In this document: positions 32,533-61,468 of the stretch, in pieces
Position numbering within the stretch: position 1 is the stretch's first letter
Layout: every line of letters begins with the position of its first letter
Assembly (NCBI GenBank): GCA_012841925.1
Contig: DUTT01000052.1
Span: forward strand, 124,001 to 188,000
From: Clostridiales bacterium
GTDB taxonomy: Bacteria; Bacillota; Clostridia; Peptostreptococcales; Anaerovoracaceae
DNA length: 64,000 nt
Direction of reading: 5' to 3'
Made by a program: the position numbers and the translations under genes
The notes under the pieces: model-generated
What the model was told of the DNA's origin: nothing
Database searches by the model: none
What the model saw: only the letters and a program-made list of their open reading frames with translations

Positions 32533-33690
32533 CTATTTTTCGTATACGTACAGGCCGCGCTCTCCGAGGTGGGCGACCATCTCGTCGAACTTCTCTCCGA
32601 TAAAGTAGCTTTCCGGATCGATGACGCCGTACAGACCGCTGTTGTCCTTTGCAGCCATCATGGCGCCGATGGCGATCGGATACGCCGTTGCAAGCTCCAT
32701 CGACGTCAGTTTGTTTTCGTCGTCGGAGTAAGTTTTGAGTTCGTATTTTTTCTCGACGTATTTACCGTTCAGCAGGCCTTTTCCAACCACCAGCAGGTAG
32801 GTCATGTCGCGAACGCCCCAGACTTTCTTCCAGAGCTTCCGGAAAATGACTTCCGATACGTCGATTGGGCGCAGCTTTACGCCGTTTACTTCGATTTCTT
32901 CGGTGCTGAAGAAGCCGATCTCTTCGAGTTCTCTCATCTTAGCGAGGTGACCCGGCCAGCGCAGCGTTGTCTCAGCCAGTTTCTTGATGCCCTTGCCGGC
33001 CATCGTCTTGGTGAGCGAGCACAGTCCGTCGGTGTAGAATACTTCGGCCAGGCCGTGTCCCGGAATCTGAATCATGTCGAATACTTCCAGATTGGGTTTT
33101 ACGACAGGCTCACCGTCTTCGAACACGGTCGAAGGAGTGATGTACATATCGAGCATCGCTTCCAGGCTGAAGGCTTCCATGTAGTCCAGCGGGCATGTGC
33201 CCTTCTCTGCCGGGATTCCACCGACGTAGATGATGCCTTCTTCGAGCTGATCGAATTCGTGCTCGAGCTGACCGATGCAGATGTTTGCAAACCCGGGAGC
33301 AATTCCAAGCCCCGGAATCGCCAGAACTTTAGCATCCACAAGCGCCTGATGATGCTCGTGGTGTTTGTCCCACTGCCAGAAATCGGAAAATACTGCGTGC
33401 GTGTTTCCTGCTTTGGCAAGTCCTTCGTACACAGCGTTCGTATACTCCAGCCCGTGAGGCAGACAGATGATGCTCACGTCGTTGTCTCTCATCAGAGCGG
33501 CTGTTTTATCCACATCCAATACGTCGAACTCCACAAACGACGCTCTGGGATCCGGAACGAGTTCCTTCGCAAGCTCCAGATTTTCATGATCGACGTCCGC
33601 ATACACGACTTTTGCATCCTTATCGAAGTTCAGGATGTCGTACCCGACGACGCGGCCCTGCAGGCCTGCGCCTAATACCAAATACTTCAT
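32533..33690 (-). CDS. Saccharopine dehydrogenase-like oxidoreductase, copy 1
   Basis: 385 residues of the saccharopine/lysine-6-dehydrogenase family. The N-terminal Rossmann motif is GAGLQGRVVG; the catalytic domain holds GIAPGFANICIGQLE, GGIPAEKGTCPLDY and RWPGHL. It should oxidise or reduce an amino acid at a secondary or primary amine with NAD(P). A second gene of identical length and very high similarity lies 200 bp upstream (33890-35047); the copies differ mainly in scattered conservative positions. AGGAGG precedes the ATG, and it has its own promoter. Substrate unknown: lysine, saccharopine or related. Confidence 0.85.
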   Translation of the reverse strand: MKYLVLGAGLQGRVVGYDILNFDKDAKVVYADVDHENLELAKELVPDPRASFVEFDVLDVDKTAALMRDNDVSIICLPHGLEYTNAVYEGLAKAGNTHAVFSDFWQWDKHHEHHQALVDAKVLAIPGLGIAPGFANICIGQLEHEFDQLEEGIIYVGGIPAEKGTCPLDYMEAFSLEAMLDMYITPSTVFEDGEPVVKPNLEVFDMIQIPGHGLAEVFYTDGLCSLTKTMAGKGIKKLAETTLRWPGHLAKMRELEEIGFFSTEEIEVNGVKLRPIDVSEVIFRKLWKKVWGVRDMTYLLVVGKGLLNGKYVEKKYELKTYSDDENKLTSMELATAYPIAIGAMMAAKDNSGLYGVIDPESYFIGEKFDEMVAHLGERGLYVYEK

Positions 33691-33889: not shown

Positions 33890-35047
33890 TTATTTTTCGT
33901 ACACATTGATGCCCCTGCGTCCGAGCTGAGCGACCATCTCGTGGAACTTGTCGCCTACAAAATAGATCTCGGGGTCGACGATACCCTTCAGTCCGCTGTT
34001 GTCCTCTGCGATCATCTGCGCAGCGATGGAAATGGGATAGGCTGTTGCAAGCTCCATGGAAGTCAGCTTGGCTTCGTCGTCCGAATACGTCTTCAGCTCG
34101 TAGGATTTTTCGATATACTTACCATCCTTGAGCCCTTTGCCGACCACCAGCAAATAGGTCAGGTCCCGAACACCCCATACCTTTTTCCAAAGGTTCTTAA
34201 AGATGACTTCCGATACGTCTTTTGGGGTGACCTTTACACCGTTGACTTCGATCTCTTCCGTACTGAAGAATCCCAGATCGTTGAGCTGCCTCATCTTTTC
34301 GATGTGACCCGGCCAGCGCAGCGTGGTCTCGGCCAGTTTTTTGATGCCCTTGCCCTGCATGTTCTTTGTGAGCGTGCACAGACCATCGGTATAAAACACC
34401 TCCGCCAGTCCGTGACCCGGAATCTGAATCATGTCGAACACGGTCAGCGGGGGTTTTTCGACGAGTTCGCCGTCCTCAAACACGATGGAGGGCGTGATGT
34501 ACATGTCGAGCATGGCCGACAGACAGAACGCTTCCATATAGTCGAGCGGGCACGTTCCCTTTTCAGCGGGTATTCCGCCTACGTAGATGATTCCCTCTTC
34601 CATCTGATCGAACTCGTGTTCGAGCTGCCCGATGCAGATATTCGCAAAGCCCGGGGCGATACCCATGCCAGGAACCGCCAGCACGTTGGCGTCGACCAGC
34701 GCTTGCTGATGCTGTTGATGACGCTCCCATACCCAGTAATCCGAAAATACCGCCTTTACATTTCCTGCTGCTGCCAGTCCCCTATATACCGAATGCGTAA
34801 TTTCCTCCCCGTGAGGAAGGCACACGACGATGCTGTCGCTCTGCCTCATCAGGGCAGCCGTCTCCTCCGTGTCGAGCACGTTGAACTCCACAAACGACGC
34901 TCTGGGATCCTTGATGAACTCCTTTGTGATTGCCAGATTTTCCGGATCGATGTCCGCATAGATCACTTCGGCGTCTTCTACGTATTTCAGGATATCGTAT
35001 CCGACGACGCGCCCCTGCAGGCCCGAGCCAATGATCAATGTCTTCAT
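33890..35047 (-). CDS. Saccharopine dehydrogenase-like oxidoreductase, copy 2
   Basis: 385 residues with the same domain order and motifs as copy 1 (GSGLQGRVVG, GMGIAPGFANICIGQLE, GGIPAEKGTCPLDY). Differences lie mostly in the first 130 residues and in short charged stretches, so cofactor or substrate preference could have shifted. It has its own promoter, AGGAGG site and terminator, so the two copies can be expressed separately. The arrangement points to a recent tandem duplication that included the promoter. Confidence 0.85.
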   Translation of the reverse strand: MKTLIIGSGLQGRVVGYDILKYVEDAEVIYADIDPENLAITKEFIKDPRASFVEFNVLDTEETAALMRQSDSIVVCLPHGEEITHSVYRGLAAAGNVKAVFSDYWVWERHQQHQQALVDANVLAVPGMGIAPGFANICIGQLEHEFDQMEEGIIYVGGIPAEKGTCPLDYMEAFCLSAMLDMYITPSIVFEDGELVEKPPLTVFDMIQIPGHGLAEVFYTDGLCTLTKNMQGKGIKKLAETTLRWPGHIEKMRQLNDLGFFSTEEIEVNGVKVTPKDVSEVIFKNLWKKVWGVRDLTYLLVVGKGLKDGKYIEKSYELKTYSDDEAKLTSMELATAYPISIAAQMIAEDNSGLKGIVDPEIYFVGDKFHEMVAQLGRRGINVYEK

Positions 35048-35237: not shown

Positions 35238-35768
35238 ATGAAAAATCTACGCATTATCACCTTAATTCTGGCAATTCTTTTCCTGTTTTCTGCCTGCGGC
35301 AATACGAATGGCGGCAGCGAAGAACCGACCACATCTCTTGCCAATATACAGACGACCGATATCGAAGGCCATTCTGTCGATGCAGCCATATTTAGCGACT
35401 TCGACCTTACGATGGTCAACTTCTGGTCCATCACCTGTCCGCCGTGCATCCGGGAAATGCCCGATCTGGCAGAGCTGCACACCGCACACGAAGGTTTCCA
35501 GGTCGTGGGCGTCGTTTTGAACATTGCAGAAACGAATATGGATCAGCTTCCGGCCGTACTGCAGATCGTCGAACAGACCGGTGCCGCTTATCCGCACCTG
35601 GCTGTATCGGAGAGTCTGCACGAAGCAAAAACCAAGGACATCACGTACGTGCCCGAGACGATTTTCGTGAACGCCGACGGCCATCAGGTCGGTGAATCGT
35701 ATGTCGGCGCCAAGTCGTACGAGGACTGGAACGCCATCATCGAAGCGCTTCTGGAGGACGTCCGATGA
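35238..35768 (+). CDS. TlpA/ResA-like thioredoxin-fold lipoprotein
   Basis: 176 residues. A lipoprotein signal (LFLFSAC, lipidated Cys at about residue 20), a low-complexity linker, then a TlpA/ResA-type thioredoxin fold with active site C-P-P-C in SITCPPCIREMP and a cis-Pro segment TYVPETIFVN. It would reduce or exchange disulfides outside the membrane. The ATG follows AGGAGG by 6 nt. Its stop overlaps the next gene (ATGA); the three-gene set with a CXXC mini-protein and a polyferredoxin suggests an electron path across the membrane to this thioredoxin. Confidence 0.9.
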   Translation: MKNLRIITLILAILFLFSACGNTNGGSEEPTTSLANIQTTDIEGHSVDAAIFSDFDLTMVNFWSITCPPCIREMPDLAELHTAHEGFQVVGVVLNIAETNMDQLPAVLQIVEQTGAAYPHLAVSESLHEAKTKDITYVPETIFVNADGHQVGESYVGAKSYEDWNAIIEALLEDVR

Positions 35769-35914
35769 AAGCAGCTCTTTCCTTTAACAAAAAAGCAGCG
35801 GCTCTATTGGTTGCCGGAATACTTTTTATGTTAATTGGAGCATATCGCGGAGAAATCGCTGTCGTTTTTCAAAAAGCGATCATCATCTGTCTGGAGTGTA
35901 TCGGCATTGGCTAA
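35765..35914 (+). CDS. CD1871A-type CXXC motif mini-protein
   Basis: 49 residues: one membrane helix (about 10-29) and a C-terminal segment ending ICLECIGIG, with the C-x2-C near the C-terminus. This is the pattern of the CD1871A family of CXXC mini-proteins in Clostridia, which typically sit beside TlpA-like thioredoxins and 4Fe-4S proteins, as here. It overlaps the lipoprotein stop and the start of the polyferredoxin gene. It may pass electrons between the membrane polyferredoxin and the thioredoxin; that role is inferred. Confidence 0.85.
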   Translation: MKAALSFNKKAAALLVAGILFMLIGAYRGEIAVVFQKAIIICLECIGIG

Positions 35915-36827
35915 AGTGTCTTTAAAGAAGAACAAAATCCGCCGCGCGTGGGTGCAATCGGGCTTTACAGTCCTCACAAACAGCCACGCAAGCGGATTTT
36001 TGCAGGGTAAAATCTACACAGGCCCCGCGAAAGCCGTGTGTGTTCCGGGACTGAACTGCTATTCGTGCCCCGGTGCACTCGGTTCGTGTCCCGTTGGATC
36101 GCTGCAGGCTGTACTGGGAAGCCGCGAGTTTTCTATGTCGTTTTACGTGCTCGGCTTTCTTGCGGCTGCCGGTGCGCTGGTCGGGCGCCTGGTCTGCGGG
36201 TGGCTTTGCCCGTTCGGCCTTGTGCAGGACATCCTGCACAAAATTCCTTTTGTCCGAAAATATACAAAGATGCGCGCAGATCGCGTGCTGCGCTGGCTCA
36301 AATATGCGATACTCGCGGTGTTCGTCATCGCGCTTCCCGTCTGGATTTCGGATGTAACCGGCATGGGTGACCCCTGGTATTGCAAGTATATCTGCCCGTC
36401 GGGCACGCTGATGGCCGGCTGGCCGCTGCTTGCAGCCAACGCTTCGCTGAGGCGGGCGGCCGGTGCGCTGTTTGCATGGAAGTCCGCGATCCTCATCGCC
36501 GTGCTGCTTCTTTCCATTTCGATCTATCGGCCGTTCTGCCGCTGGGCCTGCCCCCTCGGGGCAATCTATGGCCTGATGAACCGCGCGTCGTTTTATCGAC
36601 TCGAACTCGATCGCGACACCTGCATCGACTGTGGACGCTGCGAAGCAGCCTGCAAGCTGGGTATACCGGTTCTTACCGATCAGAACAGCGCAGACTGCAT
36701 CCGCTGCGGCGACTGCACAAACGCCTGTCCGACCGGTGCCCTGCACAGCTCGCTGGATGCGCTTCTCGCACAAAAAAGGCCGGACACCTCGCACGGCCAG
36801 ACGCATAAGTCGCAAAGCTCTGATTGA
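35907..36827 (+). CDS. Membrane polyferredoxin (4Fe-4S, NapH/YccM-like)
   Basis: 306 residues from a TTG at 35907, which has GGAG 10 nt upstream and overlaps the mini-protein stop; a GTG at 35916 is the alternative. Membrane helices alternate with cysteine clusters: CVPGLNCYSCPGALGSCP, CGWLCPFG, CKYICPSG, CRWACPLG. Two classical [4Fe-4S] motifs close the protein (CIDCGRCEAACK and CIRCGDCTNACP). It resembles quinol- or ferredoxin-linked membrane electron-transfer proteins. In this operon it likely supplies electrons to the outer-face thioredoxin. Confidence 0.87.
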   Translation: MAKVSLKKNKIRRAWVQSGFTVLTNSHASGFLQGKIYTGPAKAVCVPGLNCYSCPGALGSCPVGSLQAVLGSREFSMSFYVLGFLAAAGALVGRLVCGWLCPFGLVQDILHKIPFVRKYTKMRADRVLRWLKYAILAVFVIALPVWISDVTGMGDPWYCKYICPSGTLMAGWPLLAANASLRRAAGALFAWKSAILIAVLLLSISIYRPFCRWACPLGAIYGLMNRASFYRLELDRDTCIDCGRCEAACKLGIPVLTDQNSADCIRCGDCTNACPTGALHSSLDALLAQKRPDTSHGQTHKSQSSD

Positions 36828-36889: not shown

Positions 36890-39685
36890 TTATACCTTTC
36901 TCGCCTGCACGAGATTTGTATGCTGCGGATTACCCCTGGCAAGCGGCGTCGGACGCGACGACGTCAGCACGTTGATGCATCCCCGCTCATCCGCACCGTC
37001 CGCTGCCGGTCGAAACCATCCTCCCTCCGAAAGCGCAACGACACCCTTCATAATGCGGTCTGTCACAAGCGCCGGTATGCGTACACAGCCCCGGTCGTTG
37101 AACACTTCCATCAGTTCGCCGTTTTTGATCCCCCGCTCGCAGGCATCTGCCGGATGGATCCAGAAAGCCGGCGGTTCGAGCTCTTCCATGAGAGGATTGT
37201 TCTCGTGGATCGAGTGGCATCGTCTCTTCGTGTGGTAGCCGATGAGCTGCAGCGGATACTTTTCTTTAAGCGGATCGTGCGGTCCCTCCGGGCTTGGCAC
37301 GTAGCGCGGCAGCCCCGGGATTTCGTCCGGGCGCCCCATATCGTACAGCGTCTTGGAAAAAATCTCAATCTTCCCTGACGGCGTATTAAAACATCCGTTC
37401 TCTTCGATGAGCTTCTGAAAAGCGATGTACGGTTCCCCAGCCTCGTAGACAAAGCCGCCGGCTTCTTTTAACCCAGCAAGCGGTGGCAGTTCCGGCTCTG
37501 CATCGCGCGCCTGATCGTACAGGTGCACCATCCAGTCTTCGAGCGACGGTTTGCCGTCCGTAAACAAATCCTCCAGCCCGAGGCGGGTCGAAACATCCCG
37601 GATCCACTCGTACTCAAAGCGGCATCCGAACAGAGGCTCCATGCAGCGTTGATTATATAGCAGGTAATTATCCGTAACCCAGGGGGGGACGATGTTGTCG
37701 ACTTCGAAAAACGACGGTGCGGGCAGCACGAGATCGGCAAACTTCGCACCGGAGGTCAGAAATACATCGGAAACGACGATCATTCTGATTTTGCTTTCGT
37801 CGGCCAGCAGTGCAGCCGTACGGTTGACATCCGAATGCTGCGTAAGCAGCAGCGAGTTTGCCAGATTGAACACGAGCTCGATGGACGAATCCAGTTTTTC
37901 AACACCGGTCACTCCGTGTTCTTCCGGCGTCAGGCGAGTCGCATCTTCAACGGCATCCGTCCAGAGAAACGAAGGAATCGCCCCGGGAAACGGGTTGTGC
38001 ACCGCCGTAAACTCCGGATGCGTCCTCGTGGGAATCCACGGCGTACCGCCGCTGCTGCCCCCGCTCTTGCCTACGTTCCCTGTGATGCACGCCAGCGCCG
38101 CCATGCTGCGATAGAACTGCTCCCCGTTGCCGGTCCGCTGGGGCCCCAGGCCGGGAAGAATGCAGGCCGGTTTCGTTTTGGCGTACTGCTCGGCCAGTCG
38201 CCGAATGTTCTCAGCCGGTATGCCGGTGATGCTCTGCGCCCACTCGGCCGTCTTTTCGATTCCGTCCTTCTCTCCGGACAGATAGGCCGCATAACTTTCG
38301 CCGTCCGGCACGCCTTCCGGCATGTGCGCTTCGTCGAAGCCCACACAAAAGGCATCCATAAATGCCTGATCCTGCAGCTTATTCTGCAGGATGTGCCAGC
38401 ACATGGCGTCGGCAAGCGCCGAGTCCGTCGAAGGTTTGATTGCAATCCACCAGTCCGCATACGTCAGCACGGTTTCGCTCTTCCTGGGGTCGATGACAAC
38501 GATGGGGATGCCCTGCTCTTTCGCCTGTGTAAGCGTGCGGTTAAAAAACGGGCCGAAGTGATTGGCAGAAGGGTTGTGCCCCCACAGGATGATCATGCCG
38601 GCATGGAGGATGTCGCTTTCCGTGTGACCGCATTCGAGTGTGCCGTACACGTACGGCGTCACGTAATTGGCGCACGCCGCGCTGTAGTAGTTGTAGTACT
38701 CCAGATAGCCGCCCGAAAGACCCAGCAGACGCTTCATAAAGCGGTCGCCGCGCAGCAGCGCTGATACGCCGGACGCCGGCGTTACAAAGCGCGAAGACGG
38801 ACCAGCCTCTATCCCGGTGCGTTCGATTTCGCGCGCAATTTTTTCCGCCGCCTCCTCCCAGCTGATCCTGCGGAACCGCCCTTCCCCACGCTTCCCGATG
38901 CGCTCCATCGGATAGCGAAGCCGGTCGGCTGTCAAAAACGTCTGGCGGTATGCCCTGCCGCGCGCGCATCCTGTAAACGGCAGCACATCAGTATTCGGCG
39001 TAATCTCGAGTACGCAACCTTCCTGCACACGGGCATTCATCAGGCATTTAGCGCCGCAGTCGTTGAAGCTGGCAATCGCCACACATCGCTCCGGTTCGAG
39101 CGGTATCGGCTCGCCGGCCGTCCAGGCGTCAGCGCTCTTTACAGTCGAAGCAGTCGGGAATTCGTCCGTATCGAAGAGGTGGATGTCTTTTCCTTTTACG
39201 GCCCGACTCATGTGGGAACAAAGAGCCCGGAGCTCCGGATGATCGCTGTAGAAAAGAAGCGCTTCCCGTACCGCGCGCACCGTATCGACGACAAATGCGC
39301 CGATAAAATCCTCTGCCTTACCGGCCAGGTGCCGATCACCGGACGATTCGCAGGTCGACAGGTACTCCAGGAATCGAAACTGCTCACCGATGTAATCCGC
39401 CGGATTGCCGTCCATAAGGACCGGCTCGTAGCCGCATTCCTTATAGAAGCGTATCACATCCAGCGTCACTTCGTTGCACAGTTCGCGCGTTCCCGTCTTC
39501 GCGCACGATGCCCAGAGCGGTACAAACACATCCGCCTGCGTCCCCTTGAGCAGGTAATCGTATTCGATTTGGGAAATCGAAGAATCGATGCCCATATGGC
39601 GAGATACGAGGCGCCAGCGATTCAGATCTTCAAAAAATAAACGGAAGCAGTGCCAAAGGATTGTCCGGTCGTTCTGTTTAGTCAT
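36890..39685 (-). CDS. TorD-like chaperone domain fused to a DMSO-reductase-family molybdoenzyme
   Basis: 931 residues from the ATG at 39685 (GGAGG 7 nt upstream; an adjacent ATG at 39688 is only 4 nt away). Residues 1 to about 170 look like a TorD/DmsD chaperone (all-helical, with EPVLMDGNPADYIGEQFRFL). Residues from about 195 on are a molybdopterin-bis(MGD) oxidoreductase of the DmsA type: GRAYRQTF, RLRYPMER, the likely Mo-ligand Ser335 in NYYSAAC, ILWGHNPSANHF, GNVGKSGGSS and a C-terminal ARGNPQHTN. The N-terminal [4Fe-4S] site has C210-x3-C214 and C240, but Ser206 where the first Cys is expected; C201 might substitute. No Tat signal, so cytoplasmic. No B or C subunit gene lies nearby. Confidence 0.88.
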   Translation of the reverse strand: MTKQNDRTILWHCFRLFFEDLNRWRLVSRHMGIDSSISQIEYDYLLKGTQADVFVPLWASCAKTGTRELCNEVTLDVIRFYKECGYEPVLMDGNPADYIGEQFRFLEYLSTCESSGDRHLAGKAEDFIGAFVVDTVRAVREALLFYSDHPELRALCSHMSRAVKGKDIHLFDTDEFPTASTVKSADAWTAGEPIPLEPERCVAIASFNDCGAKCLMNARVQEGCVLEITPNTDVLPFTGCARGRAYRQTFLTADRLRYPMERIGKRGEGRFRRISWEEAAEKIAREIERTGIEAGPSSRFVTPASGVSALLRGDRFMKRLLGLSGGYLEYYNYYSAACANYVTPYVYGTLECGHTESDILHAGMIILWGHNPSANHFGPFFNRTLTQAKEQGIPIVVIDPRKSETVLTYADWWIAIKPSTDSALADAMCWHILQNKLQDQAFMDAFCVGFDEAHMPEGVPDGESYAAYLSGEKDGIEKTAEWAQSITGIPAENIRRLAEQYAKTKPACILPGLGPQRTGNGEQFYRSMAALACITGNVGKSGGSSGGTPWIPTRTHPEFTAVHNPFPGAIPSFLWTDAVEDATRLTPEEHGVTGVEKLDSSIELVFNLANSLLLTQHSDVNRTAALLADESKIRMIVVSDVFLTSGAKFADLVLPAPSFFEVDNIVPPWVTDNYLLYNQRCMEPLFGCRFEYEWIRDVSTRLGLEDLFTDGKPSLEDWMVHLYDQARDAEPELPPLAGLKEAGGFVYEAGEPYIAFQKLIEENGCFNTPSGKIEIFSKTLYDMGRPDEIPGLPRYVPSPEGPHDPLKEKYPLQLIGYHTKRRCHSIHENNPLMEELEPPAFWIHPADACERGIKNGELMEVFNDRGCVRIPALVTDRIMKGVVALSEGGWFRPAADGADERGCINVLTSSRPTPLARGNPQHTNLVQARKV

Positions 39686-39744
39686 CATCGTTCCTCCAAC
39701 TGCTTCCGTTCGTACTACAATATCCTGCTGAGCTGTGCGGAGCT

Positions 39745-40734
39745 CTACTTGCCGCTCAGATTCGCTTTAACGCGCGCTTCCGCCAGGCTGATCGCGTTGT
39801 GGAACGCCTGCTCTTTCAGCTCTTCGTATTCTTTCAGATCGTCGGCGAGCACAGCCGACCACTCTTCCGCAAACGCGCCGCTTGTAATCGCGTCGTACTG
39901 CTCTTCCAGGAACTTCCGGATCGGCGCCGTATTCACTTTGCCAAACCGGGAAAGCTGTCCGTACTGGCTCGTGCGGGAATGCATCGGAAGCTGCTTAAAC
40001 AATCCGACATCCGCCATTTTTTCGAGCATCACGGCCGGCTCCTTGGACAGGTACAGCTCGGTGAGAATCGCTTCTTCGGAAAATCCTTTTTCCGTAAACA
40101 GCTTAAATGCTTCGTTCATCACGTTCATGATCAACGGCCATACCGCCTGTTCGCTCATCAGGTCCAGATACGTCTCTTCGTTGAATGTCACTTCGATGGC
40201 ACCGGCTCTTGTCGAACCCATGGCCTTGGCGAGTCCCAGCGCAATGTCTTTTGCCTGACCGGTCGCATCCTGCTGCACGACGACAAACGTCGGGAATCCC
40301 GTGCCGTTTTCGTACGTCTCGCGCACGCCCTGCCCGATCATGCGGGGGGCGACCATGATCACATCCAGATCCGCTCTCGGCTTGATGTAGCCGTAGGTGA
40401 TGTTGTAGCCCGACGAGAAATTCAGCACGCTGCCCGCCTTCAGGTTCGGCTCGATTTCCTGTTCGTAAATAGCGGGAGCCACCTCATCCGGTATCAGAAT
40501 GAATACGATGTCTGCACGCTTTGAGGCATCCGCTATGGACAGCACCGGAAAACCGTCTTCGTTCGCCTGCGTCCACGATTCGTCGCGCACGCTGCCGATC
40601 ACGATGTCTTTTACACCCGAATCGCGCATGTTCAGCGCCTGGGACCGTCCCTGGTTTCCGTAACCGATGATCGCAATCGTCTTGCCTGTGACAAAGGAAA
40701 TATCTCCGTCCTTGTCGTAGTAAATTTTGCTCAT
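39745..40734 (-). CDS. ilvC: Ketol-acid reductoisomerase (class I)
   Basis: 329 residues. An NADP-binding Rossmann domain (AIIGYGNQGRSQALNMRDSG, loop GSVRDESW) precedes the helical KARI domain with metal ligands (EVTFNEETYLDLMSEQAVW) and an HSRTSQYG segment. It isomerises and reduces 2-acetolactate in branched-chain amino-acid synthesis. No other ilv gene is near; it sits between a glycyl-radical activase and a molybdoenzyme, so a catabolic role on a related 2-hydroxy-3-keto acid is possible. AAAGGAG precedes the ATG by 6 nt. Confidence 0.85.
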   Translation of the reverse strand: MSKIYYDKDGDISFVTGKTIAIIGYGNQGRSQALNMRDSGVKDIVIGSVRDESWTQANEDGFPVLSIADASKRADIVFILIPDEVAPAIYEQEIEPNLKAGSVLNFSSGYNITYGYIKPRADLDVIMVAPRMIGQGVRETYENGTGFPTFVVVQQDATGQAKDIALGLAKAMGSTRAGAIEVTFNEETYLDLMSEQAVWPLIMNVMNEAFKLFTEKGFSEEAILTELYLSKEPAVMLEKMADVGLFKQLPMHSRTSQYGQLSRFGKVNTAPIRKFLEEQYDAITSGAFAEEWSAVLADDLKEYEELKEQAFHNAISLAEARVKANLSGK

Positions 40735-40805: not shown

Positions 40806-41732
40806 CTACAGCCCCAAGATATCTACTTCGATGCCAGCCTGTTCCAGCACAGTCCGTATGGAATCCAGGGTGCTTTGAGAAGGTGGTTCAAACACTCGGG
40901 CCCGCTCACCGATTCTTTCGGATTTCGAAACCCCGAGCGTATGGTACGGCAGCAGCGTAGCGCGTTGCAATTCATTTTGAATCAGAAATGCGGCCGTTTC
41001 CTCGATCAAAGGTTCGGTATCGTTGTAGCCTTTGATCAGAGGCATGCGGATAGTGATTTTCTGCCGGATCGCTTCATCGGCGGCAAGCCGCCTCAGGTTA
41101 TCCAGTATCAGGCGGTTGTCGACGCCCGTCCCTTCGGCATGTACTTCCGGATTCATGCATTTGATATCGTAGAGGATATCCGTCACGCCCGGATGCGAAG
41201 CGATCCGAAACAGCGCATCGCCGTCCCCGTGCCCCGATGTATCCAGGCATACGCCGATACCCCGCTCGTATGCAAGCCGGACCATCTCCTCCACAAACGC
41301 CGGCCTCGAAAGCATCTCCCCTCCGGAGAGCGTAATCCCGCCGCCGGTGTGCCCGTAAAACCCGCTGTCCTTTGCCGCTTCGTTCATCAGCTCTTCGGCT
41401 GTCTTCTCCTCAGCGACGGATGCGAGTGCACCGGCGTAGCAGGCATCGACGCACAGCAGGCACGTGTCGCAGGCGCTGCGATCTACTTCGATTTTTCCAT
41501 CGACCAGCGCAAGCGCACCGTTTGGGCAGGCCTCGATGCAGTACCCGCATCCGATGCACCTGTTTGTAAGGAGAATCAGCTGCGGACCGAAGTCGATCAT
41601 CTCGGGATTGTGGCACCATGCGCATCGAAGCGGACATCCTTTAAAGAAAATCGTCGTGCGGATGCCCGGTCCGTCCTCCACAGAAAATTTTTGAATGCTG
41701 CCGACCGGCGCCGTCATGGGTATTTGCGTCAC
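40806..41732 (-). CDS. Glycyl-radical-enzyme activating protein (radical SAM)
   Basis: 308 residues from a GTG at 41732 (7 nt after AGGGGGG). The radical SAM motif C-x3-C-x2-C is in GCPLRCAWCHNPE, followed by a two-cluster ferredoxin insert (CIGCGYCIEACP and CDTCLLCVDACY), then GGITLSGGE and DTSGHGDGD. It uses S-adenosylmethionine to abstract hydrogen from the conserved glycine of the partner enzyme encoded 13 nt upstream. The ferredoxin insert is typical of activases for dehydratase/lyase-type glycyl-radical enzymes rather than pyruvate formate-lyase. Confidence 0.93.
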   Translation of the reverse strand: MTQIPMTAPVGSIQKFSVEDGPGIRTTIFFKGCPLRCAWCHNPEMIDFGPQLILLTNRCIGCGYCIEACPNGALALVDGKIEVDRSACDTCLLCVDACYAGALASVAEEKTAEELMNEAAKDSGFYGHTGGGITLSGGEMLSRPAFVEEMVRLAYERGIGVCLDTSGHGDGDALFRIASHPGVTDILYDIKCMNPEVHAEGTGVDNRLILDNLRRLAADEAIRQKITIRMPLIKGYNDTEPLIEETAAFLIQNELQRATLLPYHTLGVSKSERIGERARVFEPPSQSTLDSIRTVLEQAGIEVDILGL

Positions 41733-41745
41733 TGGTATACCCCCC

Positions 41746-44118
41746 TTATGCCAGATGCGCCGTGCGGTCGATGATCGTATCCTGTGCGGCTTTATCGAGC
41801 TCGGTAAAGTATGCCATATAGCCTGCGACGCGGACCATCAGTCCCCGGTGTTTTTCCGGATTCTTCTGGGCGTCAATCAGCGTCTCGTTGTCGACGACGT
41901 TGATCTGGATATGCTCACCGCCGTTGTCGAAGTACGTCTTGATGACGCCTTCCACAATTTCCAGTCCTTTTTCTCCCTGAATTCCCCTGGGATCGAAGCG
42001 CAGGTTGAACAGCGCACCGTCGTGGAACGCCGTCTGGTTGATAGCTCCGACCGATTTGACGGTCGCCGTCGGCCCGCTGATATCGCGGCCCATCACCGGT
42101 GAAGAGTTGTCGCTGAACGGCTCGTAGGCTTTGCGCCCGTCCGGTGTCGCGCCGGTCATCTCACCGTGCGAGATGTTGACGGTCTGCGACAGGTTGCAGA
42201 ACGAATACTTGCCGCCCCGGGAGTCATCGTACTCCTGGACCGTTTCGGCAATGTATGTCAGATAGTCGCGCACGAGTCCGTCCACTTTCGGAATATCGTT
42301 GCCAAACTTGGCCGGTTTGTTGATCAAAAGCTGCCGGATCCGCTCTTCGCCTTCGAAGTTCTTATCGAGGATCGCCACAAGCTCTTCCAGCGTCAGCGTT
42401 CCATCTTTAAAGACGACCTGATCGATCGCTTCCAGCGAGTCGCCCAGATTCGCCGGCCCGGTTACAAACATACCTGCCGTGGAGTACTTGGCTCCGCCCT
42501 GCTGTACCGACTTACCTGATTCAATGCATCCGTCGATGGCCATGGACGCCATCATGACCGGCAGCCTCTCCGCGTGGATCGGAACGATGAGGTTATAGCC
42601 GTCGCGAATCATCTCGTAGAAGTGAACTGACTGCTTTTTGACCGCATCCATGATGTCCTCGACGCTCGTAAACTCCGAGAGTTCGCCCGTTTGCAGACCG
42701 ACGAGTTCGCCTGTAAGCGGATCGATACCGTTGTGCAGCGCCAACTCGAGCATCTTCGGTGCGTTGACGTAGCCCGCATCCGGACTGCCGTCCGTCGTAC
42801 CGCCGCCCGGAGCAGGCTGTATGCATCCGACGATGCACCAGTCTCTGGCTTCTTCGATGGTACAGCCTTTACCCTGTACCATGCGCATCGCCGCTTTGTC
42901 GCTGAAGAAGCCGGGGTTGGCCATACCCTTTTGCACCATCTCCGCACCTTTGCGGAGCAGCTCCGGAGGCGTACCGTCGTGAACGCGAAGCGCCAGGACC
43001 GGCTGTGTCGTCTGAAGTGCGGCCCCGGCATCCAAACACAGATAAGACAGCGGATTTGTCGCATCCCCACCATGGCGGTCCACTCCGCCTACCATCAGAA
43101 TTTCCCACATGGGATAGCCGGCAAACGATTTCGAATACCATTTATCGCGGACTTCGTATACTTCGCAGCACTTCAGATAAAAGCATTCGAGGAGCTCCAG
43201 CACATCTGCGTCATCGGTGAGAAGACCCCGCTCCCGATCCAGCTGCAGATACGGATACATGTACTGGTCAAATCGCCCGAAGCCGCAGGCCGTCGTCGGT
43301 GCCTCGATGTGAAACGACACCTGAATCAGCCATACAAACTGCAGTGCCTCATGAAAGCTACGCGGTGGATTGGCAGGCACGTGGCGGCAGTTTTCAGCGA
43401 TGACGAGCAGTTCGGCTTTCCTTGACGCATCCGACTCGGCCGCCGCCATTTCTTCGGCCTTTTCCGCGCAGCGTTCCGCATAGCGGATGATGCCTTCGGC
43501 CATGATGATGCAACCGGTCCAAAAATCGATCTTCGGCTGTCTGGATACATGGCCGCCTTTTGCGCGTTCTTCCTCGATCAGCTCCCGGCAGCGGGCGATG
43601 TGACCCGAAAGTCCCAGCGACAGCAACCGGCTGTAGTTGGGCGTCGTCTCTCCTGATACGCCGTTTCTGCACCCGACCGAGATGAGGTCTTTCTGCCTTG
43701 CGTCTTCGATCTCGGGAGGCAGGATACTCGGCGCGAGATCTTCCACAGCTTTACCTTCCCAGTATTCGAACAGCTTCAGAATTTTCTCTTTGTCTTCGGG
43801 CGTGATGTCGTACGGGTCGGTCGTGCGCGTTGGAAACTCATCGAGCTCGTCGCGCAGCCAGCCGGTGGATGTGTATTCCATAAACAGGTTCGCCCCTTTG
43901 TACGTATTCGTGGGCGACCCGACGATGAGTTCGTCCGGGAATATGCACACCGTCATGTGCTCCATGATGTACGACATGACCTTCGCGCGGAATATGGGAG
44001 CCGCTTCCCCTGCATATAGCTGATAGGCTTCGGTCGCAAGCTCCAGATGCTCCGCCGTGATATTCGGCCGCGTATCGAAGTAACGAGTTTTCATCCTGTG
44101 TAAGCGTTCGTTTAGCAT
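41746..44118 (-). CDS. Glycyl-radical enzyme of unassigned substrate
   Basis: 790 residues from the ATG at 44118 (AGAAAGGA 7 nt upstream). The C-terminal glycyl-radical motif RVAGYMAYF (Gly766) and the active-site cysteine Cys432 (in IVGCIQPAPGGG) are present, with SHGEMTGATPDGRKA and FDPRGI near the end. Dehydratase- and lyase-type members usually have G-C-V-E-P at the active site, with Glu two residues after Cys acting as base; here that residue is Gln434. The enzyme therefore falls outside the well-known choline lyase, glycerol/propanediol dehydratase and hydroxyproline dehydratase signatures as I know them. Neighbours are an activase, an alcohol dehydrogenase and an ATC-hydrolase-family protein. 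Confidence 0.9.
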   Translation of the reverse strand: MLNERLHRMKTRYFDTRPNITAEHLELATEAYQLYAGEAAPIFRAKVMSYIMEHMTVCIFPDELIVGSPTNTYKGANLFMEYTSTGWLRDELDEFPTRTTDPYDITPEDKEKILKLFEYWEGKAVEDLAPSILPPEIEDARQKDLISVGCRNGVSGETTPNYSRLLSLGLSGHIARCRELIEEERAKGGHVSRQPKIDFWTGCIIMAEGIIRYAERCAEKAEEMAAAESDASRKAELLVIAENCRHVPANPPRSFHEALQFVWLIQVSFHIEAPTTACGFGRFDQYMYPYLQLDRERGLLTDDADVLELLECFYLKCCEVYEVRDKWYSKSFAGYPMWEILMVGGVDRHGGDATNPLSYLCLDAGAALQTTQPVLALRVHDGTPPELLRKGAEMVQKGMANPGFFSDKAAMRMVQGKGCTIEEARDWCIVGCIQPAPGGGTTDGSPDAGYVNAPKMLELALHNGIDPLTGELVGLQTGELSEFTSVEDIMDAVKKQSVHFYEMIRDGYNLIVPIHAERLPVMMASMAIDGCIESGKSVQQGGAKYSTAGMFVTGPANLGDSLEAIDQVVFKDGTLTLEELVAILDKNFEGEERIRQLLINKPAKFGNDIPKVDGLVRDYLTYIAETVQEYDDSRGGKYSFCNLSQTVNISHGEMTGATPDGRKAYEPFSDNSSPVMGRDISGPTATVKSVGAINQTAFHDGALFNLRFDPRGIQGEKGLEIVEGVIKTYFDNGGEHIQINVVDNETLIDAQKNPEKHRGLMVRVAGYMAYFTELDKAAQDTIIDRTAHLA

Positions 44119-44226
44119 GTATGAGTCCTTTCTTCTCCTAAATGTTTTTATCAGATGTTCATCAAACTGCCGGCAGCGCACCCCCCGGCAGATATTACAA
44201 TTTCTGCTGAATGCATCCGGGTAATC

Positions 44227-56403: not shown

Positions 56404-58383
56404 ATGCATACAAAAATTGTCATTGTTGGTGCGGGATATGCAGGCATTCTGACCGCAAAGAAGCTGGAAAAGAAATTTCGCAAAAACGAAAGCGTTTCCA
56501 TCACGGTCATCGATAAAAATCCCTTCCATGCGCTGCTGACGGAACTGCACGAAGTCGCCGCCAATCGGGTCGACGAAGACAGTATCCGCGTCAGCCTAAA
56601 GAAAGTGTTCGCCGGTCGGAAAGTCGATGTACGGCTCGACACGATTACGTCGTTCGATTTTGACAACAAGAGAGTTATAGGAAAAGCCCAGGAGTACGAA
56701 TACGACTATCTCGTGCTCAGCGCCGGCTCCAAACCGACGTTTTTCGGCGTTCCGGGCGCAGAGGAACACTCGTTTAAGCTGTGGTCCTACGACGACGCCA
56801 TTCAGATTCGTCACCACTTGATCGATCTGTTCCGCAAAGCCTGTCGCATTGCAGACCGCGACGAACGGCGCGCGATGCTCTCCATCTTCATCGTCGGTGC
56901 CGGCTTTACCGGTGTGGAAATGGCGGGCGAGCTGGCCGAATATCTTCCGATCATATGTGACAAGTTCGAAATCGATCGCGAAGACGTCAACGTATCCATC
57001 GTCGACATCCTCGACCGTACGATTCCCAACCTGCCGGCCGAGCTGTCGGTCAAAGTTGAAAAACGTCTGCGCAAAATGGGCGTCAATATCATCCTGGGCG
57101 CGAACGTTACAGAAATCGGCGAAGACTTTATCGAAACGCGAGATGCCAAGTCCGGCGAAGTTACAAGGCGTGTGGCTTCCACCGTCATCTGGGGTGCCGG
57201 CATCGAAAGCGCCGACATCACCGGCGAAGCAGCGAAGGTTCTCGAATCGGCCAACCGCGGCCGGATCAAAATCGATTCGAACCTGCGCTCCGTCGACAAT
57301 CCCGATGTGTTCGTCATCGGCGACAACATGCTCTACACACCTGAGGGCCAGGAGCGTCCGGTTCCCCAGGTCGTCGAAAACTGCGAGCACAGCGCAAAGA
57401 CGGCTGCGAACAACATCGAAGTTCTCATTACAGGTAAAGGTAAGCTGGAAGATTACGATCCGAAGTTCCACGGGTTTATGGTGTGCATCGGCGGACGTTA
57501 CGGCGTAGCGCGCGTGGGATTTCCCGATCGCATGATCAACCTGCCGTCGTTTTTCGCTATGCTCGTTAAGCACCTCGTCAACATGCTGTATTTTGCCCAG
57601 GTTCTCGGCTGGAACAAGCTGTGGAGCTACAGCAAACATGAGTTCTTTACGATTAGGCATCGCAGAAGCTATGTGGGCGGTCACTTTTCAAATCGCACAC
57701 CGAGTTTCCTCCTCGTGCCGCTGCGCGTGTGGCTCGGTGCGACATGGGTGTTCGAAAGCCTAAAGAAAATCGGCGAAGGCTGGATGACCGAACCGAAGCT
57801 CGAAGCGTTCTTCGGAGGCGCACAGGCGTGGTTCGAAAGCATTACAGGCAGCGCCGGCGCTGCAGTCGGAGCAGCTGCGGATGCCGTTACCCAGGCGACC
57901 GCCAACGGCGGTGGAGAAGCGGCCGAAACGGTCGGGACGACCATCTTCAACTGGAACTTTTTCGGCCTCGTCCGCGCGATGTTCGTAAGCGGCAACGAGC
58001 TTGCGGCTTCGTCGATCGGCGACTTTGCGTTTAAGCTCGACATCCCGCTGATGAACTCGTTTCTCAACACATTCGTGCTCGCAAGCAGCGGTACTCAGGT
58101 GGCCATGCAGGGTTTCATCGTAATCGCAGAACTCGTGCTCGGACTCCTGCTCATCGCTGGACTCTTTACGACGCCGGCCGCCGCCGCATCCCTCGTATTG
58201 CAACTGATGTTCGTGTGCACGACGGGCTTGTATCTGGGCACATTCTGGATGATCTTTGCAGGCGTTGCCGTGCTGATCGCCGGAGGACGCTCGTTCGGAC
58301 TGGACTACTATGTGCTGCCTGCGATGCAGAAGCGCTGGAAGAAGATCCCGGTCGTAGAGAGACTGTATCTGTACAATGATTGA
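56404..58383 (+). CDS. ndh2: Type II NADH dehydrogenase with C-terminal DoxX-like membrane domain
   Basis: 659 residues. Residues 1-400 are a type II NADH:quinone oxidoreductase with FAD motif GAGYAG (9-14), NAD motif GAGFTG (165-170), IWGAGIESAD and VFVIGDNM. An extra C-terminal part of about 230 residues contains a hydrophilic Ala/Gly-rich linker and DoxX-like helices (MQGFIVIAELVLGLLLIAGLFTT). It oxidises NADH and passes electrons to a membrane quinone without pumping protons. The membrane-tailed form heading quinone-synthesis genes and flavin lipoprotein genes matches Ndh2 of the flavin-based extracellular electron transfer system of Listeria. AGGAGG lies 6 nt before the ATG. Confidence 0.9.
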   Translation: MHTKIVIVGAGYAGILTAKKLEKKFRKNESVSITVIDKNPFHALLTELHEVAANRVDEDSIRVSLKKVFAGRKVDVRLDTITSFDFDNKRVIGKAQEYEYDYLVLSAGSKPTFFGVPGAEEHSFKLWSYDDAIQIRHHLIDLFRKACRIADRDERRAMLSIFIVGAGFTGVEMAGELAEYLPIICDKFEIDREDVNVSIVDILDRTIPNLPAELSVKVEKRLRKMGVNIILGANVTEIGEDFIETRDAKSGEVTRRVASTVIWGAGIESADITGEAAKVLESANRGRIKIDSNLRSVDNPDVFVIGDNMLYTPEGQERPVPQVVENCEHSAKTAANNIEVLITGKGKLEDYDPKFHGFMVCIGGRYGVARVGFPDRMINLPSFFAMLVKHLVNMLYFAQVLGWNKLWSYSKHEFFTIRHRRSYVGGHFSNRTPSFLLVPLRVWLGATWVFESLKKIGEGWMTEPKLEAFFGGAQAWFESITGSAGAAVGAAADAVTQATANGGGEAAETVGTTIFNWNFFGLVRAMFVSGNELAASSIGDFAFKLDIPLMNSFLNTFVLASSGTQVAMQGFIVIAELVLGLLLIAGLFTTPAAAASLVLQLMFVCTTGLYLGTFWMIFAGVAVLIAGGRSFGLDYYVLPAMQKRWKKIPVVERLYLYND

Positions 58384-59356
58384 TTCAGCGAACGCACAGC
58401 GTCAAACAGCCGAATACGCGACGTATGACGAAGCATTCAGGCGCGTCGCAGCGCTCGTCGACCGTACGCTGACAGCTTCTCCGATCGTGATACGCGAATA
58501 CACATCGCATCTCGCGCGCTCGAACGGGAAGTACCTGCGCACCGCTTCGCTTCTCGCGTGCGCCATGAATACAGATGATCTGGTGCACCGCGATGCCGTA
58601 CTCATCGCTTCCGCCATCGAAATCATCCATCTGGCCACGCTCGTGCACGACGATATCATCGACAACGCCGATCTGCGGCGGGGCGAGCCTTCGCTGCAGA
58701 AGAAATTCGGTAAACGCACGGCCGTCATCTGCGGGGATTACCTCCTGTGCGCAGCGCTGCGAATCGCTTCCGGCGCGGAAGACCGCAGCAGCTACGTCAG
58801 TCGCGGTATCCCCGACTACATGAGCAAGGTGTGCCTCGGCGAACTGAATCAGCACATACACAGCGGCGACAACCGCCTGTCTGTGTACCGTTATCTTAAA
58901 ATCATCGCCGGTAAGACGGCCGCTCTGTTCGAAGCGGCATTCCACGGAGGAGCTCTTCTGGCCGGCGACGATGACCATGCGATTAAAAGGTATGCGAAGC
59001 TCGGAAAATACGTCGGCATGATTTTTCAGCTGACCGACGACTGCATGGATTACGAGGCTACGGAAGAGACGGCCAAAAAACCGGTCCGCTCCGACTACGA
59101 CCAGAACGTTGTCACGCTCCCGCTGATCCACGCATTTCGCAGAGTCGACGGACTGCGCGAAAAGTCGAATGCAGGGCCCATTACGTTCGAAGAGATCGGC
59201 GAAGCGGTCCGCGCCTCGGGCGGCCTCATCTATACGAGGATGGTCGCAAAGAAGTATCGAGATAAGGCGCTCGCGACTCTAGACAGCCTGGAGCTGACAG
59301 ACGCAAAGAGAGAGCGGCTCCTGGACATCCTGAACAAGGCCTACCGTGTCTTTTAA
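58376..59356 (+). CDS. dmkB: Polyprenyl diphosphate synthase (DmkB-like)
   Basis: 326 residues. The two aspartate-rich motifs of trans-prenyltransferases are present: LVHDDIIDNADLRRG and FQLTDDCMDYE, with the GKYLRTASLL and CGDYLLCAALRIAS segments. It makes the isoprenoid side chain for a (demethyl)menaquinone. It overlaps the ndh2 stop by 8 nt, so translation is coupled; the ribosome site is weak. Order and neighbours correspond to dmkB of the extracellular electron transfer locus. Confidence 0.88.
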   Translation: MIDSANAQRQTAEYATYDEAFRRVAALVDRTLTASPIVIREYTSHLARSNGKYLRTASLLACAMNTDDLVHRDAVLIASAIEIIHLATLVHDDIIDNADLRRGEPSLQKKFGKRTAVICGDYLLCAALRIASGAEDRSSYVSRGIPDYMSKVCLGELNQHIHSGDNRLSVYRYLKIIAGKTAALFEAAFHGGALLAGDDDHAIKRYAKLGKYVGMIFQLTDDCMDYEATEETAKKPVRSDYDQNVVTLPLIHAFRRVDGLREKSNAGPITFEEIGEAVRASGGLIYTRMVAKKYRDKALATLDSLELTDAKRERLLDILNKAYRVF

Positions 59357-59413
59357 CCGCGTACCGGGATATGCGCATCCGCAACAGCGGATGGATGGAA
59401 GGAATGAGAGCGT

Positions 59414-60334
59414 TTGACGATCTCCGGCTTTCTAAAATATGTAGAGATCAAGACGAAGATTACGAGTGTCTTCTCGTTTGCGATGATCACCGGCTACCTG
59501 TTTTCCATCGGTCAGCCCGTCGATGTGCAGAAGACGGCTGTGTTCTTCGCAGGTATGTTCCTCTTCGATCTGGCCACGACGTCGATCAACAACTATATCG
59601 ACACGAAGAGCAACGGCCTGCCGCTTCCGGCTTCGCGAAAGTCAGCTGCCGTCATCACGGCATTCCTCCTCGTCGCAAGTGTGGGACTTGGAATAGGACT
59701 CGTGCTGATGACAGACACAATCGTTCTCCTGATCGGTGCCCTGTGCTTTGCGACCGGTGTGCTGTACACCTACGGGCCCCTGCCGATCTCGAGACAACCG
59801 TGGGGCGAGCTGGTATCCGGCCTGTTCTACGGGCTGGTGATTCCGTTTCTGATCCTTTACATAAACATGCCGCAGGGATATTATATGACGGTGTCGCTGA
59901 GCGCAGAAACGCTGAGCGTCGAGCTTCAGATTCTCCCTATCCTCACCGTGCTGCTGCTTGCAGTCAGTCCGGTCTGCTGCACCGCCAACATCATGCTGGC
60001 GAACAACATCTGCGATCTGGAGAAAGATGTCCGGGTCAAACGGCACACGCTGCCGTACTACATCGGAGTGCCGAACGCACTGAAGCTGTTTGCCTTTATT
60101 TACTACATAACATATGCAAACACTGTGCTTCTGGTCATCACGAGAATTCTGCATCCGGTGGCGCTTCTGGCGCTGATCACCATCGTACCCGTGCAGAAGA
60201 ACATAAACATATTTATGTCAATGCAAGATAAGGAAGAAACTTTTCCGGTATCGATTGTAAATTTCATCGCAATCATGAGCGCTCTTGTGCTCGTCATCTG
60301 GATCGGCGGCTTCCTGACCCGCATGGCGGTCTAA
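59414..60334 (+). CDS. dmkA: UbiA-family prenyltransferase (DmkA/MenA-like)
   Basis: 306 residues from a TTG at 59414 (AAGGA 10 nt upstream). Nine or so membrane helices, with the first Asp-rich loop NNYIDTKSN (last Asp replaced by Asn) and the second NNICDLEKDVRVKRHTLPYYIG, typical of DHNA prenyltransferases. It attaches the polyprenyl chain to a naphthoate ring to give demethylmenaquinone. No other men genes lie in the window, so the ring precursor must come from elsewhere. Confidence 0.85.
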   Translation: MTISGFLKYVEIKTKITSVFSFAMITGYLFSIGQPVDVQKTAVFFAGMFLFDLATTSINNYIDTKSNGLPLPASRKSAAVITAFLLVASVGLGIGLVLMTDTIVLLIGALCFATGVLYTYGPLPISRQPWGELVSGLFYGLVIPFLILYINMPQGYYMTVSLSAETLSVELQILPILTVLLLAVSPVCCTANIMLANNICDLEKDVRVKRHTLPYYIGVPNALKLFAFIYYITYANTVLLVITRILHPVALLALITIVPVQKNINIFMSMQDKEETFPVSIVNFIAIMSALVLVIWIGGFLTRMAV

Positions 60335-60375
60335 AAAGACACTCCGCCCCGGGCGTTGGAAACTGATTCGTTATT

Positions 60376-60404
60376 TTACCGGCTCACACAGAATCGGTTA
60401 AAAT
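60376..60404 (+). promoter_or_regulatory. Internal promoter before the FMN lipoprotein gene
   Basis: TTACCG (60376-60381), 17-bp spacer, TAAAAT (60399-60404). It would allow extra expression of the lipoprotein and its flavin transferase. Confidence 0.55.
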
Positions 60405-60430
60405 AAAAACAAATTTTTCGGAGGAAAAAA

Positions 60431-61459
60431 ATGAAAAAGAAAATCACACTGGCACTCGTGCTGGCACTGGCCGTCTTTGCGCTGGCGGCCTGCGGAGGAA
60501 CCACACCGCCCGCAGACGACAACGGAGGCGAAGCAGCTGCACTCAAGACCGGATTGGCCATCGCCACGGGTATCGGACATTCGGTAGACGCCGGCGAAGA
60601 GGATGGGAGCGCACAGGCCGACTCGACAATCGTCGCTGTGACTGTCGATGAGGACGGCATCATTCAAAAATGTGCCATCGACGTCATCGAGACGAAAATC
60701 GCGATTTCTACAGACGGAAAAATCACGACCCCGCTGGATACCGTATTTGTTGGCAAGCAGGAAATCGGTGACGGATACGGCATGAAAAAAGCCTCTGGCA
60801 TCGGCAAAGAATGGTATGAGCAGGCGAATGCCCTCGCCGCCTATGCGGTCGGGAAAAGCGTTGCCGACCTCAAAGCAATCGCTGTAACCGAAAGCGGTGC
60901 GCCGGCAGATACCGATCTGTCCGCAACCGTTACCCTCAAGATCGGCGGCTTTATCGACGCCATCGAGCAGGCCGTCGCTTCGGCTAAGTCGCTCGGCGCA
61001 CAGGCCGGAAACCGCATCGGTATCGGTGTTTATTCGACGATCGACATGTCCACAGAAGCCGGTGACTCCAACGGAACGGCTCAGGCTTATGTGAACGCAG
61101 CCGCTGTTACATTCGATAAGGACGGCGTCGTCACAAGCTGCATCATCGATGCGGCCCAGGCGGATATCGAGTTTACGACGGCCGGCGCGATCGCTACCGA
61201 TCTCGCAGCGACATTCGACTCCAAGAACGTTCTCGGAGACGGATACGACATGAAGAAAGCCTCGTCCATCGGCAAAGAATGGTACGAGCAGGCAGCTGGA
61301 TTTGCCGCTTATGCGACCGGGAAAACAGCCGCAGAAGTCAAAGGTATCGCTCTGACCGACGACGGACTCGCCGCGGATGCCGACCTGGCTTCGACCGCGA
61401 CGATTCACATCGGACCGTTTATGACGAACGTGGAAAAAGCTTATCAGGCAGTAAAATAA
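60431..61459 (+). CDS. FMN-binding lipoprotein with two repeated domains (PplA-like)
   Basis: 342 residues. Signal peptide with lipobox LAAC (Cys21), a short linker, then two homologous domains of about 150 residues. Each holds GDGYGMKKAS or GDGYDMKKAS, IGKEWYEQA, an AAYA-GK segment and a D-L-x-x-T-x-T signature (Thr166/168 and Thr322/324) where a flavin could be attached covalently. It is the expected extracellular electron-carrying flavoprotein of the flavin-based electron transfer system. GGAGG lies 8 nt before the ATG. The ApbE flavin transferase needed to load it is the next gene. Confidence 0.88.
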   Translation: MKKKITLALVLALAVFALAACGGTTPPADDNGGEAAALKTGLAIATGIGHSVDAGEEDGSAQADSTIVAVTVDEDGIIQKCAIDVIETKIAISTDGKITTPLDTVFVGKQEIGDGYGMKKASGIGKEWYEQANALAAYAVGKSVADLKAIAVTESGAPADTDLSATVTLKIGGFIDAIEQAVASAKSLGAQAGNRIGIGVYSTIDMSTEAGDSNGTAQAYVNAAAVTFDKDGVVTSCIIDAAQADIEFTTAGAIATDLAATFDSKNVLGDGYDMKKASSIGKEWYEQAAGFAAYATGKTAAEVKGIALTDDGLAADADLASTATIHIGPFMTNVEKAYQAVK

Positions 61460-61468
61460 GGAGCACGT

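Follow-up and report, generated by a model that had tools for sequence, protein, structure and literature searches.

The question raised by this locus is whether a chaperone of the TorD/DmsD/NarJ type can have become the N-terminus of the very molybdoenzyme that it would serve and, if so, from where such an enzyme would obtain its electrons. The window, by which the whole analysed stretch of 64,000 nucleotides is meant, carries a gene in which the two are encoded as one chain, with the following features:

36890..39688, (-) strand: TorD-DmsA fusion gene, 932 amino acids, stop codon included (profile matches and AlphaFold2 full-length model)
39179..39688, (-) strand: TorD/DmsD/NarJ-type chaperone domain, residues 1-170 (PF02613; fold Z 15.4 to DmsD, 3cw0, over 160 residues)
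39089..39178, (-) strand: linker, residues 171-200, predicted mostly with low confidence (pLDDT about 59 at residues 171-190)
36893..39103, (-) strand: DmsA/YnfE-type bis-MGD catalytic domain, residues 196-932 (TIGR02166, PF00384, PF01568)
38681..38683, (-) strand: S336, which aligns with the serine ligating molybdenum in DmsA (invariant in 38/38 fusions; alignment with E. coli DmsA)

The reading frame begins with two adjacent ATGs (39688 and 39685), immediately preceded by a GGAGG sequence resembling a ribosome-binding site. Residues are numbered here from the first Met (39688); the first-pass annotation had counted from the second (39685), and its Ser206 is S207 in this text.

The Pfam matches follow one another in the order PF02613, molybdopterin oxidoreductase domain and dinucleotide-binding domain. 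PF02613 is matched by residues 40-119 with 27.4 bits (cut-off 22.2), and the catalytic part reaches 785.4 bits against TIGR02166 (dmsA_ynfE), for which the curated NCBIfam cut-off is 777.7. The proposal that the enzyme itself begins with a TorD-like domain is borne out by both profiles and by the predicted fold; rather than forming a separate protein, as is the rule for the PF02613 family, the chaperone domain sits within the 932-residue enzyme. Compared by sequence alone with solved structures, this domain gave weak matches (best relevant E 0.037), and the matter was settled by fold comparison, which had been set beforehand as the test. When the N-terminal 175 residues were modelled alone with AlphaFold2 (pLDDT 95), a NarJ-family fold was obtained, the closest solved structures being DmsD, TtrD, YcdY and NarJ (Z 15.4 to 10.3; DmsD 15.4, TtrD 15.0, NarJ 12.2), with the next unrelated chain at 7.1. 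PF02613 was also matched by all 35 homologous N-terminal domains sampled, and a search for relatives of the domain among viral contigs returned none. For the whole protein, an AlphaFold2 model based on 38 homologues reached a pLDDT of 91.6 and a pTM of 0.92; in structural comparison it comes closest to H. influenzae MtsZ and Rhodobacter DMSO reductase.

No twin-arginine motif was found in the first 60 residues of the fusion, nor is there a hydrophobic segment among them (hydropathy over 19 residues peaks at 0.31), so that the missing Tat signal of the first-pass annotation stands and the reading as a soluble enzyme is supported. The gene is confirmed to encode a molybdopterin reductase of the DmsA/YnfE type with an N-terminal chaperone-type domain and no Tat signal. 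It has been demonstrated that DmsA deprived of its signal peptide still yields a soluble DmsAB that is active in the cytoplasm (PMC10609526). TatC was absent from all 18 genomes of the fusion clade and its kin tested in the GTDB family, the source genome included. Such absence is not specific to the fusions, since TatC exceeded the cut-off in only 2 of 149 genomes of the family as a whole. The idea that the lack of TatC explains the fusion is weakened by this rarity and by two TatC-positive genomes that carry another fused branch; the absence supports a cytoplasmic location and leaves the fusion itself unexplained.

With regard to the electron supply, the fusion has a paralogue in the source genome (L003; 51% identity), in whose operon the fusion is preceded by an FAD/NAD(P)H oxidoreductase resembling NirB-N and NorW and this, in turn, by a DmsB-like ferredoxin containing 16 cysteines. 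A chaperone-domain scan of named genomes revealed 47 loci with relatives, an undercount given that the scan relied on one peptide pattern. According to tblastn, an NADH-type FAD oxidoreductase lies directly upstream, at -6 to 234 bp, in 31 of them, and DmsB precedes this oxidoreductase in 26 of the 47; in three of the remaining loci the contig ends too near for partner presence to be judged. The class is therefore not without electron partners, and most of the 31 loci also place DmsB before the flavoprotein. In all 29 readable homologues of the oxidoreductase, the last residue of the NAD-binding fingerprint is Glu or Asp, an acidic end that is typical of NADH-preferring enzymes. Additionally, the three components are tied together by loci in which DmsB is itself fused to the oxidoreductase or to TorD-DmsA:

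L105, 6924-8960: DmsB-FAD oxidoreductase fusion
L107, 2548-4698: DmsB-FAD oxidoreductase fusion
L109, 7086-8969: DmsB-FAD oxidoreductase fusion
L120, 2814-6326: DmsB-TorD-DmsA triple fusion, 1170 amino acids, from a Lachnospiraceae MAG

A DmsC membrane anchor was not seen among the open reading frames around either fusion copy of the source genome. This genome contains a moa/mob/moe cofactor cluster, in which the names beyond MoeA were assigned by sequence reading. A MoeA match was absent in six fusion-bearing genomes (G001, G002, G003, G006, G052 and G162), which may stem from gaps in the drafts or point to another route to the cofactor.

The reading that we favour, and which we hold to be rather probable, is that of a self-chaperoned cytoplasmic DmsA-type enzyme devoted to NADH-driven reduction of S- or N-oxides, of which the window copy would be an orphan that borrows its partners or uses another donor. 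In this mechanism, the chaperone would take the place of the Tat signal peptide as N-terminal domain and would keep the apo form of the catalytic domain open, first for insertion of the FS0 cluster and then of the molybdenum cofactor. Since insertion would occur in cis, a separate chaperone would be unnecessary, and self-chaperoning is the likeliest meaning that we infer for the fusion. In the standard form of the family, electrons would pass from NADH to the FAD oxidoreductase, through the four [4Fe-4S] clusters of the DmsB-like subunit to FS0, and finally to molybdenum. The reduction of an S- or N-oxide would thereby regenerate NAD+ in fermenting cells, without the participation of membrane or quinone. 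Such oxides are the most likely substrates because the candidate molybdenum ligand is a serine and the nearest described relatives reduce them; serine is also the molybdenum-ligand residue of DmsA, which reduces S- and N-oxides (PMC10100899).

The alternative that survives best, although we regard it as doubtful, is that the fused domain now serves the mature enzyme for good, in a structural or gating role such as closing over the cofactor funnel or providing a dock for DmsB, and has ceased to be mainly a maturation factor. Being covalently attached, the domain is never released; it is strongly conserved, with 17 invariant columns across 13 diverse chaperone domains, and the pTM of the full-length model hints at a defined position on the catalytic domain. 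Its ligand site is also altered. All 36 readable fusions have Tyr or Phe at the position of DmsD H127, whereas His is found in E. coli DmsD, in clostridial TorDs encoded as separate proteins and in the other fused branch; the equivalent of DmsD D126 is retained. We take H127 to be part of the site at which DmsD binds the Tat leader; if so, the fused domain would have dropped leader recognition while retaining the rest of the fold. However, the fusions retain the conserved chaperone core, namely WxS together with P and D from P-x-D-H, as would be expected if maturation persists, and the poorly predicted linker at residues 171-190 could let the domain swing away from the enzyme.

The self-chaperoned reading leaves the window copy itself to be placed, since neither a DmsB nor an oxidoreductase partner is found at its locus and the sole DmsB-like gene of the source genome adjoins the paralogue. 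As an orphan paralogue, the window copy belongs to a minority of its class; four named MAGs (AS06rmzACSIP_54, RGIG1565, RGIG7540 and RUG11894) likewise pair an orphan with an operonic fusion. An orphan of this kind would probably borrow the DmsB and the oxidoreductase of the operonic copy, or else draw on another donor. Its neighbours are the following:

39745..40734, (-) strand: ketol-acid reductoisomerase-like gene, 56 bp upstream of the fusion (TIGR00465 over cut-off)
40806..41732, (-) strand: glycyl-radical-enzyme activase, putative operon (TIGR02494 over cut-off)
41746..44181, (-) strand: glycyl radical enzyme, putative operon (PF02901 and PF01228; TIGR01774 just under cut-off)
35835..36827, (+) strand: NapH-like membrane 4Fe-4S protein, convergent neighbour (profiles; kept in the genus)
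35238..35768, (+) strand: TlpA/ResA-like thioredoxin lipoprotein, adjoining the NapH-like gene (profiles; genus comparison)

The first-pass annotation had seen no electron-transfer or membrane genes nearby, which holds for DmsB and reductase partners but not for the adjoining NapH-like Fe-S membrane protein, a possible electron partner of the window fusion. With no DmsB or oxidoreductase beside it and a putative glycyl-radical-enzyme operon in their place, the window copy may have a different role from its relatives, and its position after the glycyl radical enzyme, the activase and the reductoisomerase-like gene suggests a pathway-specific one. It could then be dedicated to this pathway, with a substrate other than general S- or N-oxides, as in a specific reduction or dehydroxylation. 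The four genes share a strand with gaps of only 13, 71 and 56 bp, and their order is preserved in two related genomes; the order of the reductoisomerase-like gene and the fusion is maintained in the genus. Nevertheless, in another genus the orphan paralogues lie in a very different gene context, and both the candidate molybdenum-ligand serine and the best fold matches point to S- and N-oxide reductases, so that a dedicated role seems unlikely. The glycyl radical enzyme has a GCIQP motif around its putative active-site cysteine, and no library model of its specificity scored above cut-off.

For the favoured mechanism, the iron-sulfur site through which electrons would enter the catalytic domain deserves particular attention:

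38966..39070, (-) strand: FS0 region, with S207 (first ligand lost), C211, C215, C225 (new invariant cysteine) and C241 (columns over 38 fusions aligned with E. coli DmsA, YnfE and YnfF)

The four-cysteine FS0 motif CX3CX3C...C is broken at its first member, since S207 aligns with the first FS0 cysteine of E. coli DmsA; the [4Fe-4S] type named in the first-pass annotation is putative. The serine reported there is real, but it is not a trait of the fusion: over 38 fusions the position is Gly in 22, Ser in 13, Asn in two and Cys in one, and Gly, Ser or Asn is found in the wider clostridial lineage. In fact, Gly occupies the first-ligand position in all five unfused clostridial relatives compared, one of them with a Tat signal, which rules out Ser207 as a special mark of the fusion. 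The only cysteines invariant in 38/38 fusions are C211, C215, C225 and C241. Position 207 is Cys in the three E. coli proteins DmsA, YnfE and YnfF, whose residues at 225 are E, E and T, respectively; in the unfused clostridial relatives, as in the other fused branch, 207 is Gly and 225 is not Cys. The lost first ligand is therefore an old trait of the lineage and C225 a mark of the clade, gained once at its base.

It could be supposed that C225 stands in for the lost cysteine as fourth FS0 ligand, given its invariance, its single gain and a first-ligand position that is Gly, Ser or Asn in 37 of the 38 fusions. This is nonetheless improbable. The relatives with Gly at 207, whether unfused or of the other fused branch, do without Cys 225, and one fusion (L106) carries both cysteines. 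In the model, a hairpin follows directly on C215, its first strand spanning 216-222 and its second beginning with C225, which would therefore be expected to lie about 20 Å from C215; at ten residues past C215, about one strand length off, it is probably too far for a ligand role, and it could as likely serve at an interface between subunits or domains. An FS0 site without one of its canonical ligands could be impaired in electron entry, which counts against the self-chaperoned, NADH-driven reading. Histidine is known as first FS0 ligand in subfamily II enzymes (PMC8840923), whereas no description of Ser, Gly or Asn at this site was found in the open-access literature. In the related nitrate reductase NarG, substitution of a cysteine ligand of FS0 blocks cofactor insertion (PMC10609526).

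The source genome, of 1.6 Mb and 89% complete, belongs to an uncultured Clostridia bacterium of gut type and has exactly two PF00384 and two PF02613 genes, both pairs being the fusions; consequently, it contains no separate TorD, and the domain has no other client in its own genome. Across the GTDB family, strong matches were obtained in 24 of 297 genomes and in 10 of 92 genera, a few of these (genus g80) being unfused. The search across genomes that had been suggested at the outset thus shows the fusion to recur among Clostridia of the gut and spirochaetes, with 47 named loci in Clostridia (Oscillospiraceae, Lachnospiraceae, Dysosmobacter, Candidatus Faecousia and Family XIII) and in Spirochaetes (Treponema and others); a single cultured strain, Clostridium sp. 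DSM 17811, was among them, the others being MAGs. That a draft assembly or a frameshift joined two adjacent genes, for which the draft nature of the source genome is the sole argument, is refuted by a stop-free frame in several genomes of the genus and in dozens of independent assemblies, including that of the cultured Clostridium. Although the architecture is frequent, no account of a TorD-DmsA fusion was found in the open-access literature (subscription papers and bioRxiv preprints were outside the scope), so that the many described enzymes of this kind that would have spoken against its novelty did not emerge.

In a catalytic-domain tree computed without positions 207 and 225, the 38 complete fusions form a single clade (SH-aLRT 99), and four further fusions branch outside it:

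L128, 3725-6793: outside-branch fusion
L129, 5952-8993: outside-branch fusion
L140, 6570-9575: outside-branch fusion
L141, 5669-8671: outside-branch fusion

These four have a longer chaperone part, no C225 and no NADH-type flavoprotein at the locus. By parsimony the fusion state requires two changes, and hence one origin with one loss and two origins are both possible. At the unfused locus L142, which lies in a TatC-positive genome, a separate TorD, a DmsA with Tat signal and DmsB are neighbours, and this order is plausible as the ancestral arrangement. Together with the four outside-branch fusions, the clostridial L142 is the nearest relative in the tree, and all five likewise have Gly at the first FS0 position; they differ from the fusion clade in that L142 retains the Tat signal and a separate chaperone, and the fused four lack C225 and the flavoprotein.

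Among known systems, E. coli DmsABC/YnfEFGH with DmsD shares with the fusions the catalytic fold, the TIGR02166 subfamily, the molybdenum-ligand serine, a DmsB-type partner with four clusters and a NarJ-family chaperone. In contrast, the chaperone is fused here, there is no Tat signal and no adjacent DmsC was seen, the first FS0 cysteine is lost and C225 is extra, and the operonic relatives carry an NADH-type flavoprotein instead of a quinol-oxidising membrane subunit. The maturation proteins NarJ, TorD, DmsD and TtrD (PF02613) have the same all-helical fold, Pfam profile and P-x-D core motif, but here the domain belongs to the enzyme itself and the His of DmsD H127 is replaced by Tyr or Phe. 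Soluble NAD-dependent bis-MGD enzymes, for example the formate dehydrogenase of Rhodobacter capsulatus (6tg9), resemble the proposed system in being cytoplasmic and linked to NAD(H) by way of Fe-S and flavin subunits. The formate dehydrogenase belongs, however, to another catalytic subfamily, and its flavin partner is Nuo-like, whereas the partner here has the fold of a NirB/NorW-like pyridine nucleotide-disulphide oxidoreductase.

That the fusions amount to a widespread class of NADH-driven cytoplasmic S/N-oxide reductases, with the chaperone permanently in the enzyme, a remodelled FS0 and a soluble route for anaerobes without Tat or a quinone partner, is put forward tentatively, as a possibility somewhat on the doubtful side. 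Such a family would equip treponemes and the fermentative Clostridia of the gut with a reductase for oxides that is coupled to NADH and independent of respiration, and would exemplify an FS0 site that persists despite a lost ligand, unlike that of NarG. It is established that the chaperones bind the mature enzyme at a second site as well, although this site lacks a structural definition, and recognition of the mature part of the client by NarJ, TorD and DmsD "awaits further investigation" (PMC10609526). The fusion would be useful for the question of where these chaperones dock, since a natural one-chain pair of chaperone and client fixes the stoichiometry at 1:1 and makes the interface accessible to crystallography or cryo-EM.

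Two further gene groups were observed in the window. On the (-) strand, two adjacent and similar saccharopine-dehydrogenase-like genes (33890-35047 and 32533-33690), which received no NCBIfam assignment, lie beside an amidohydrolase gene. On the (+) strand, 56404-62503 encodes consecutively an NDH-2-like flavoprotein, a polyprenyl synthase, a UbiA-type prenyltransferase, a lipoprotein without Pfam match and ApbE, a row resembling what we take to be the flavin-based extracellular electron transfer locus of Listeria.
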